From an uncultured Muribaculaceae bacterium (GTDB lineage Bacteria > Bacteroidota > Bacteroidia > Bacteroidales > Muribaculaceae): DNA of 62,103 nt. The notes below the pieces were generated by a model. The model saw only the letters and a list, made by a program, of their open reading frames with translations, searched no databases and was not told the DNA's origin. The stretch covers positions 1 to 62,103 of the forward strand of contig CAMWLY010000003.1 of NCBI GenBank assembly GCA_947175145.1, written 5' to 3'. A program made the translations under genes and the position numbers. Shown one piece after another: positions 29,424 to 50,233 of this stretch. Within the stretch, counting starts at the first letter, position 1. Every line of letters begins with the position of its first letter.

Positions 29424-30446
29424 ATGGCAATCCGGCGAAGCATATTCACTCGATTCCTTAAGGCACTGCAGGTTCCTCACACTGTGGAATTTTCCGAGCA
29501 TGCCTTTCGGTCCATGGACTTCGACTCGCTCTATGGACTGAGTCATCTGCTGACTACCTACGGAATCCCCAATGAGTCCTATCGTATATACGATAAGGAG
29601 GAACTTGCCAAACTTACACCCCCTTATCTCGCACAGCTGAACTCCGGATATTTTGTGATAGTGGAATCATGCACTCCGCAAACCGTAACTTTCGATTCAT
29701 TAGGAGAAGAGAAAGAGCTCCCCACGCCACAGTTTAAAGATAAGTGGAATGGTATAGTTCTGCTCGCATATCCCGACAAGAAATCCCGTGAGCCGGATTA
29801 TGGCAGTCATTTTCTTGCCGAAACGGTTGATCATTGGAGTTGGCTGGCGCTGGTGGTAAGTGCGATTGCTGTAATGGCATATTTTTATGTGACGCGCGGT
29901 CTCTACCATTCCGTGTGGGGAAGTCTTGCCGTGTTCTTTAATATTGTCGGGCTCTTTTTCTCCTATCTTTTGGTTCAGAAAACGCTCGGGGTGCATACTG
30001 CCACCGGAGACAGTGTCTGCAATATCCTGCAGAGAGGGGGGTGCGACTCGATATTGTCGATGAAGGTATCAAAGCTCTTCGGAGTCTTTTCATGGAGTGT
30101 GGTAGGGTTCTCATATTTTGGGATATCGCTGCTTGCATTACTGATATTCCCGCATTTATGGGGTGCGTTGGCTCTCTTTAACATCTGCTGTCTGCCTTAT
30201 ACGGTGTGGAGTATATGGTACCAGAAATTCCGCGCTCACCATTGGTGCACATTGTGTGTAGGAGTTCAGACCACATTGTGGTTACTCTTTGGAGCTTACA
30301 CAGCCGGTGGATTTATAAAGACTCTTCTGCCCATGCATTTAGATGATTGGGTATTATTGGCAGTCTATATCGCCACAGTATTGTTCCTGAATCAGATAGT
30401 GAAATTTATAAAAAATATCAATCTCCATGCCAATCAACATACCTAA
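29424..30446 (+). CDS. VKOR family membrane protein with N-terminal C39-peptidase-like domain
   Basis: VKOR cysteines CNILQRGGCDSIL and HHWCTLCVG with TM helices; N-terminal C39-like fold lacking an apparent catalytic Cys. Confidence 0.8.
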   Translation: MAIRRSIFTRFLKALQVPHTVEFSEHAFRSMDFDSLYGLSHLLTTYGIPNESYRIYDKEELAKLTPPYLAQLNSGYFVIVESCTPQTVTFDSLGEEKELPTPQFKDKWNGIVLLAYPDKKSREPDYGSHFLAETVDHWSWLALVVSAIAVMAYFYVTRGLYHSVWGSLAVFFNIVGLFFSYLLVQKTLGVHTATGDSVCNILQRGGCDSILSMKVSKLFGVFSWSVVGFSYFGISLLALLIFPHLWGALALFNICCLPYTVWSIWYQKFRAHHWCTLCVGVQTTLWLLFGAYTAGGFIKTLLPMHLDDWVLLAVYIATVLFLNQIVKFIKNINLHANQHT

Positions 30447-48528: not shown

Positions 48529-48876
48529 ATGCCAAGATCAGTAAATCATGTGGCCTCACGCGCCAAGAGAAAGAAAATATTAAAACTCACCCGTGGTTAT
48601 TACGGCTCTCGCCGCAACGTATGGACAGTAGCCAAAAATACTTGGGAAAAGGGTCTGACATACGCATACCGCGACCGCAAACAGAAAAAGCGCAATTTCC
48701 GTGCTCTCTGGATTCAGCGTATCAATGCAGCAGCTCGTCTTGAGGATCTCTCTTACTCAAAACTCATGGGTCTTATCCACGCTGCCGGCATCGAAATCAA
48801 CCGCAAGGTGCTCGCTGAACTCGCCATGAACAATCCTGCAGCGTTCAAGGCTATCGTGGATAAAGTTAAAAAATAA
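48529..48876 (+). CDS. rplT: 50S ribosomal protein L20
   Basis: [37 protein letters not shown]. Confidence 0.97.
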
Positions 48877-48907
48877 TTTCTCCTTACACTACTAAAATTA
48901 AGCAGCT

Positions 48908-49291
48908 ATGAAAAAGCTCTTCACATTGCTCATGGCCCTCGTGCTCATGACAGCAACTGCTTCAGCTCAGCAGAAGCTCTTCAATGCAACCGAGAAGACT
49001 AAATGCACAAGCGAAAAGGTTTGTGACAAGCCTTGCGAAAAGAAAGCTTGCGATAAAGCTGTAGCAAAAGCCAAATGTGCTGACTGCAAATGTGCTGACT
49101 GCAAAGCAGCTTGCAAGGCAGAGTGCAAAGCCAATTGCAAGGAAGAATGCAAGAAAGCTTGCAAAACCGACTGCAAGAAAGCTTGCCCCAAAGCTGAAAA
49201 GAAAGCTTGCGCTCACGAGTGCAAAAAAGAGGGTGCCAAGGACTGCAAAAAGCCCTGTAAAGGTGCTCCTGTGAAGCAGGCTAATAAGTAA
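48908..49291 (+). CDS. Secreted Lys/Cys-repeat protein, function unknown
   Basis: Signal peptide MKKLFTLLMALVLMTATASAQQ; 19 Cys in 127 aa with C-K-x-x tetrad repeat CKAACKAECKANCKEECKKACKTDCKKAC. Confidence 0.85.
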   Translation: MKKLFTLLMALVLMTATASAQQKLFNATEKTKCTSEKVCDKPCEKKACDKAVAKAKCADCKCADCKAACKAECKANCKEECKKACKTDCKKACPKAEKKACAHECKKEGAKDCKKPCKGAPVKQANK

Positions 49292-49308
49292 GTTGCAAAA
49301 AATATAAA

Positions 49309-49361
49309 GATAATCGTAAGTTTTTCAAGGTTGGATTAAACTTTTTGGGCTTACGATTGTC
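49309..49361 (+). repeat. Inverted repeat GATAATCGTAAG / CTTACGATTGTC
   Basis: 12-bp stem (one G-U) with 29-nt loop. Confidence 0.75.
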
Positions 49362-49378
49362 TTATAAGGTAAAGGTAA

Positions 49379-49420
49379 TTGTCGCAGACATTGCCGAAAT
49401 AATAAAACAATGTGCGACAA
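49379..49420 (+). repeat. Inverted repeat TTGTCGCA(GA)CATTG / CAATGTGCGACAA
   Basis: 13-bp stem with 2-nt bulge, 12-nt loop. Confidence 0.75.
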
Positions 49421-49421
49421 A

Positions 49422-49455
49422 ACGGAGCCGAGGTCGAGGCCTTGACTCCGTTTTT
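49422..49455 (+). terminator. Rho-independent terminator
   Basis: ACGGAG..AGG..CCT..CTCCGTTTTT. Confidence 0.85.
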
Positions 49456-49480: not shown

Positions 49481-50233
49481 TTATCGGTTGATATCGTAGC
49501 CCTGATCTTTGAGATAATCAAGTATACGATAACTCATGGCGTGGTCATAGTAATCGAGAATGTGTGCCACCCAGTCATTGTCAGTGGTGTGCCCGGAGCG
49601 GGTCTGATTATAGTGTTTCACCACATTGTCATATTCCTCAAGTTCGCTTACCATCTTCTCATCGTCGTGGCGGTAGCTATTGTGATGGAATACCAGAGAG
49701 AGGGGTTGTTTTGGTTTCAGATCCGGGTGCTCGCGCGGTATTCCGAGTGCCAGACCGCAGACCACAAAGACACCCTTGGGCAGGTTCAGAAGTTTGGCTA
49801 CAGCTGCCGGATCCACAGTTCGCAGGTAGCCTATGCAGTTGGAGCCCAGACCTGCGCTTTGAGCAGCAACCACAGCGCTCATCATGGCAAGTGAAGCATC
49901 GATTATGCCTATGGTGACACCGTCCATAGTATTGGTGAAGGGAGGCATCACAAGCCCCTTCTTGCGGGCCAGAAGGGAAATCTTATTGTAATCAGAGCAG
50001 AAGATAAGCAGCCTGTTGCATGTCTTGATTTGCTTCTGATTCGTGAGCTCGTAAAGTTTAAGCTTCAGTTCCTGGTCATCAATGTCGATTACTGAAAATT
50101 GCTGACCATTGTAGGAAGTAGGAGTGTTTTCCACTGCACGGTATATCAACTCCATTGTTTCGGCCGGAATGGCCTCGCGCTCGTAGCGACGCACACTTGT
50201 GCGCTCAAGCAATGAATCTTTTACACTTAGCAT
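49481..50233 (-). CDS. Nitroreductase family protein
   Basis: LLERTSVRRYEREAIP; TPTSYNGQQFSVI; AQSAGLGSNCIGYLR. Confidence 0.9.
   Translation of the reverse strand: MLSVKDSLLERTSVRRYEREAIPAETMELIYRAVENTPTSYNGQQFSVIDIDDQELKLKLYELTNQKQIKTCNRLLIFCSDYNKISLLARKKGLVMPPFTNTMDGVTIGIIDASLAMMSAVVAAQSAGLGSNCIGYLRTVDPAAVAKLLNLPKGVFVVCGLALGIPREHPDLKPKQPLSLVFHHNSYRHDDEKMVSELEEYDNVVKHYNQTRSGHTTDNDWVAHILDYYDHAMSYRILDYLKDQGYDINR

Follow-up and report, generated by a model that had tools for sequence, protein, structure and literature searches.

A lineage-restricted, exported Cys/Lys-rich protein encoded downstream of rplT in Muribaculaceae, a possible extracytoplasmic metal or thiol buffer

We analysed a 62,103-nucleotide stretch of contig CAMWLY010000003.1 (assembly GCA_947175145.1) from an uncultured Muribaculaceae bacterium, hereafter the window, in which a small gene at 48908-49291 begins 31 nt past the stop codon of rplT (Table 1). 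Genes for translation and for a nitroreductase flank it, and no metal-handling gene adjoins it. Given that the gap to rplT holds no hairpin in the window, co-transcription of the gene with rpmI-rplT is possible there. In four other genomes that carry the gene, the corresponding gap contains a strong hairpin (z -2.6 to -5.5), from which we infer that the gene is likely its own transcription unit in those genomes. No confident promoter was identified for it. Of the two hairpins on its 3' side, the one nearer the nitroreductase gene also occurs in congeners without the Cys-rich gene, and its sequence is found identically in locus L097. Elsewhere in the window, 29424-30446 (+) encodes a membrane protein of 340 aa that combines a VKOR domain with an N-terminal part apparently akin to C39 peptidases; it is a candidate disulfide oxidase that would act outside the cytoplasm, and is also present in three of the four other carriers.

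Table 1. Features of the locus and of related or compared loci, with strand and basis of assignment (L, locus; G, genome; C, contig).
Feature	Position	Strand	Basis
rplT, end of the thrS-infC-rpmI-rplT run	48529..48876	+	ORF and neighbour reading
31-nt gap between rplT and the gene, no hairpin	48877..48907	+	zero folding energy
Exported Cys/Lys-rich protein, 127 aa, 19 Cys	48908..49291	+	translation, composition, orthologs
Predicted Sec/SPI signal peptide, residues 1-20, MKKLFTLLMALVLMTATASA, AxA before Q21	48908..48967	+	read from translation
N-terminal mature linker QQKLFNATEKTK, conserved QQxLF start; counterpart in relatives QQQLFSVGTAKKEHKTE	48968..49003	+	alignment
Cys/Lys repeat region, mostly C-K-x-x tetrads, holding all 19 Cys	49004..49264	+	translation, DNA repeat comparison, composition
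Strong hairpin 3' of the gene (AATCGTAAG...CTTACGATT), candidate 3' end	49308..49369	+	z = -6.3
Terminator-like hairpin shared with the convergent nitroreductase gene	49417..49454	.	z = -4.3
Nitroreductase-family protein, convergent neighbour, conserved right flank	49481..50233	-	Pfam PF00881; conserved in L136 and L137
CXXX-repeat radical-SAM system	L197 (G000 contig C33, 6000-18000), 4590-9285	-	TIGR04115, TIGR04119, TIGR04117
Exported LTXXQ (Spy-like) proteins with Cys/Lys-rich N-terminal stretches	L004:2244-2891, L067:1719-2273, L078:1746-2369	+	downstream of rplT in congeners
Exported protein of G334, 207 aa, 22 Cys, 8 His, 10 Met, long near-identical repeats (AAKQCDKAAMKDCKKAEGMKHECKEG), beside a panB-like gene	L133:1501-2124	+	profile search
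Putative succinate dehydrogenase/fumarate reductase cytochrome b subunit (G310), unusual Cys-rich C-terminal tail (CDKACDKACDKQCDKACEKACEGQ...)	L198:1982-2923	-	

Besides its 19 Cys, the translated product has 33 Lys and neither Trp nor Tyr, and the mature chain of 107 aa keeps all of the Cys (17.8%) and 31 of the Lys. Exactly four residues make up 10 of the 18 Cys-Cys gaps, and the 10 CxxxC pairs observed compare with a mean of 3.1 after shuffling of the mature sequence, with 1 of 5000 shuffles reaching 10. Translation and shuffling thus confirm what the initial annotation had read here, namely a 127-aa ORF with 19 Cys, mostly one every four residues, and without Trp or Tyr, and the Lys count agrees with its description of the protein as very Lys-rich. 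At the DNA level, the 12-bp units of the repeat match at only ∼71%, and both synonymous codons are used in the mature part for Lys (AAA 17, AAG 14) and for Cys (TGC 15, TGT 4). Given these diverged units and mixed codons, recent tandem duplication of DNA does not account for the repeat, which is old and kept at the protein level. Matches to the DNA patterns C-K-x-x and C-x-x-x were mostly simple DNA repeats, TGC/TGT-rich Gln-type repeats and CXXX-repeat peptides, and the CKxx-pattern matches in the family other than that of the window gene resemble perfect or near-perfect 12-bp DNA repeats, many of which carry stops in the frame of the pattern (TGTAAATGACAG..., TGCAAGTAATGT...).

For the encoded protein, Pfam gave no family at E <= 1, NCBIfam a signal-peptide match only, and a PDB sequence search no useful family match. 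Single-sequence phmmer and tblastn missed all orthologs (the genus search at E <= 1e-4 found the source contig only, and the genome contig scan was null), and a homology search of 61 congeneric genomes recovered none of the four that synteny revealed. These came to light when the region past rplT was read in 82 congeneric genomes, and lie in G001, G006, G038 and G009, each directly after rplT on the same strand and in the order rplT, Cys-rich gene, nitroreductase. The longer run thrS-infC-rpmI-rplT-gene-nitroreductase(-)-...-prfC-like GTPase is common to the source contig, G006 and G038. A profile of the five sequences, searched over 111 genomes of the genus, returned the same five carriers (5/111); anything else it matched was marginal and confined to the leader region of other proteins. 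As the five built the model, their E-values are inflated, and the argument for orthology is position and shared start. Synteny with rplT, which the initial annotation had proposed to check, is therefore conserved in all carriers, and the frameshifts in relatives that it had named as grounds for refutation were looked for, with intact frames found in 5/5. Pfam searches with the four orthologs gave no family at E <= 0.1 for three and only a weak Cyclotide match for the fourth. Searches of plasmids, phages and viral contigs gave no relatives of the protein, the only order-level match, in G455, was judged spurious, its protein not being a Cys repeat, and a literature search for Muribaculaceae Cys-rich proteins gave nothing relevant. 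Cys-rich proteins of this kind hide from standard homology search, and it was synteny that revealed them.

In a tree built from rpmI and rplT, all five carriers fall within one nine-genome Muribaculaceae clade (90/97 support), and the presence label needs three changes; a single gain followed by a few losses would be the simple reading of this distribution. Two of the non-carriers in the clade have a short intergenic region followed by the nitroreductase, with no gene remnant seen, a third has a different ORF after rplT, and the contig of the fourth stops 117 nt past rplT. A first tree was set aside, having been distorted by different DNA upstream of rpmI in G009. In that genome (L113, C37:1-3000), an S4-domain protein upstream of rpmI replaces thrS-infC, so that the otherwise conserved ribosomal run is rearranged.

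The leader and its signal peptidase I (SPI) cleavage site were read directly from the sequence. The alignment shows the same leader layout in all five orthologs, each with Gln at +1, which in Bacteroidetes is typical of SPI-exported proteins (the Q-rule; PMC5837995). The signal peptide and export proposed earlier are accordingly upheld by the predicted AxA SPI site of the window protein and by a Gln at +1 in 5/5 sequences, with the predicted mature start moved to Q21, between TASA and QQKLF, earlier than the initial annotation had placed it. Since there is no Cys at +1 and no lipobox Cys, the protein is not a lipoprotein. The mature chain starts with QQxLF in 5/5 orthologs and with QQQLF(S/T)VG(T/Q)AKKEHKTE in three of them (G006, G038 and G009), of which QQKLFNATEKTK is a shorter, diverged version. 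Over the 17-codon mature N-terminus, pairs among these three relatives, to which the count was confined with the window sequence left out, differ at 10-11 synonymous versus 1-2 non-synonymous codons, while random changes in this stretch would be expected to be ∼19% synonymous. This pattern indicates purifying selection on the mature N-terminus in the three. We conclude that 48908-49291 is a real, lineage-restricted gene for an exported Cys-rich protein without a named family.

The five mature chains have 19, 11, 21, 25 and, in G038, 26 Cys, or 9.6-18.2% of residues, while mature Lys spans 12.6-31.9% and the net charge lies between +5 and +20. Given that Cys stays in this range in all five while Lys and charge vary widely, Cys is the kept property. 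Phe, Trp and Tyr together total 1-2 in the mature chains of the orthologs. The Cys gaps are mainly 4 in the window sequence, 4/6/8 in G001, 4/5/6 in G006, 3/5/6 in G038 and 5/6 in G009; because spacing varies in this way, the Cys tetrad is a trait of the window sequence alone, and a thiol-lined helix is not a feature of the family. An AlphaFold model, made from only four sequences, has a mean pLDDT of 41 and no confident fold, so that the proposal of a Cys on each helical turn fares poorly on both counts. The variable spacing suits a thiol chain that tolerates such changes and is probably disordered. Two further readings were discarded on the way: that of a haem-binding c-type protein, for which there is no CxxCH motif, and that of a DNA-binding histone-like protein, prompted by a weak NF038053 match in G009, the protein being exported and the score far below the cut-off.

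Our preferred reading, to which we assign a probability of about 0.45, is that this small Sec-exported, thiol-rich protein acts in a metallothionein-like manner outside the cytoplasm, as a metal/thiol buffer. Signal peptidase I would free a nearly aromatic-free chain of 10-18% Cys, which would stay disordered until binding. Whether in the periplasm, on the surface or in the medium, the many thiols of this chain would bind soft metal ions (Cu(I), Zn, Cd and similar) or buffer thiol/redox chemistry. Since nothing but the density of Cys would have to be kept, the repeats could be gained, lost and respaced without constraint, while the N-terminal start would be retained for export or anchoring. 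The extracytoplasmic metal sponge or redox buffer put forward in the initial annotation thus survives as a best guess from sequence; that the protein is made, that its thiols are free, that it binds metal and which metal this would be, we infer. Any benefit would be niche-dependent, given that only 5/111 genomes of the genus carry the gene.

CxC and CC motifs are typical of metallothioneins, and their rarity here (each orthologue has 0-3 CxC and one CC or none) counts against a metal buffer, as does the lack of a metal-handling gene beside the locus. The same holds for the candidate VKOR-type disulfide oxidase encoded by four of the five carriers, since exported thiols could then be oxidised. 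Like the metallothioneins SmtA/BmtA and MymT, the proteins are small, Cys-dense (107 aa and 17.8% Cys in the window sequence), aromatic-poor, tolerant of spacing and probably disordered without metal, whereas they differ from them in being exported and two to three times longer, with 10-18% Cys, C-x3/4/5-C spacing and few CxC, and the window protein matches no metallothionein model in Pfam (including Metallothio_Pro) or NCBIfam. The low-confidence fold agrees with a disordered apo chain as in metallothioneins, which fold on metal binding (PMC7558416). Most characterised metallothioneins reside in the cytoplasm, and few metal-thiolate proteins are known to be exported (PMC7558416 and general knowledge). 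The periplasmic copper storage proteins of the Csp1 type are likewise exported and loaded with Cys; Csp1, however, is Tat-exported as a pre-folded four-helix bundle (PMC7558416), while the window protein has a Sec/SPI leader (MKK without twin Arg, cut before Q21), a spacing that its orthologs do not conserve, no Pfam match and no confident fold in the same four-sequence AlphaFold model.

Rather unlikely, in our judgement, is a disulfide-bonded structural or redox protein, in which a VKOR-type enzyme would oxidise the exported Cys into an inter- or intramolecular network serving as envelope coat or sacrificial reductant. Such a role would fit the export of the protein and the VKOR domains (PF07884) scoring above cut-off in 4/5 carriers, that of 29424-30446 with CxxC and loop Cys among them. 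On the other hand, VKOR was found neither in G038 (83% complete) nor in three genomes of other genera with similar proteins, and DsbB in 0/8 genomes (the five carriers and these three). Neither Cys spacing nor a fold is conserved in the family, and the Cys number is odd in 4/5 mature chains, only G038 being even, with no sign of a pairing rule.

We consider it quite unlikely that slippage added low-complexity Cys/Lys/Ala repeats to an exported leader and that the resulting gene has hardly any selected function or none. Such an expansion would account for the patchy presence of the gene and for repeats that differ greatly among orthologs and are locally homogenised (KACDKAKACDKAKA in G006), and CDKA/CEKA repeats also form the tail of the putative cytochrome b in G310. 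However, all five frames are intact and Cys-rich, position and gene order are common to all carriers, the mature N-terminus is under purifying selection in three relatives, and the mixed synonymous codons of the window sequence show an old repeat held at the protein level.

Very improbable for the family, and unlikely in the source species, is a ribosomal peptide whose Cys-Xaa-Xaa-Xaa repeats are thioether-crosslinked by a radical-SAM maturase, as in the CXXX-repeat family (TIGR04117 with maturase TIGR04115). The window protein resembles these peptides in having Cys mostly every four residues, and the source genome encodes such a system on contig C33, with two TIGR04115 maturases, a TIGR04119 protein and two Cys-Xaa-Xaa-Xaa repeat peptides, one of which passes TIGR04117. 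Yet this system lies on another contig, the C33 member scores 54.2 bits against a TIGR04117 cut-off of 50 while the window protein gives no match at E <= 1, the leader is of a different kind (Sec/SPI), and the orthologs drop the every-four spacing. TIGR04115 exceeds the cut-off in two carriers (G000 and G009) and was not found in the other three (G001, G006 and G038; 83-90% complete). Least probable of all is a precursor of a cationic antimicrobial or toxin-like peptide, which the small size, export and Cys and Lys richness of the protein and a weak, compositional phmmer match to a scorpion toxin (E 0.012) might suggest, but which is weakened by the lack of a pro-region, of a nearby immunity gene or exporter and of a conserved Cys framework, and by the G038 ortholog, with only 12.6% Lys and a charge of +5 and still 26 Cys.

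Beyond the five orthologs, exported Cys/Lys-rich proteins seem to recur in the gap between rplT and the nitroreductase. The LTXXQ (Spy-like) proteins of three congeneric loci are, like the window protein, exported and Lys-rich, contain Cys in an N-terminal stretch and lie downstream of rplT; unlike it, they carry a helical domain of the LTXXQ type (PF07813, below cut-off), and they are not orthologous by sequence. In other genera of the family, profile matches identified exported Cys/Lys-rich proteins in G387, with C-K-K-E-C repeats, in G140, a lipoprotein that adjoins prmC/recX-like genes, and in G334, which was counted in favour of a metal role because Cys, His and Met are all metal ligands. 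Found at other loci, these three are similar but not orthologous, and may be convergent.

Taken together, and more tentatively than the buffer role itself, these proteins might represent a previously unnamed, exported metallothionein-like class in Muribaculaceae, perhaps with similar proteins in two or more further genera. Selection in this class would favour the density and not the spacing of Cys, and a strict gut anaerobe would be provided with a thiol reservoir for metals outside its cytoplasm. If so, abundant gut bacteria would offer, in an exported thiol chain free of fixed spacing, a simple and testable example of extracytoplasmic metal/redox buffering in the gut.
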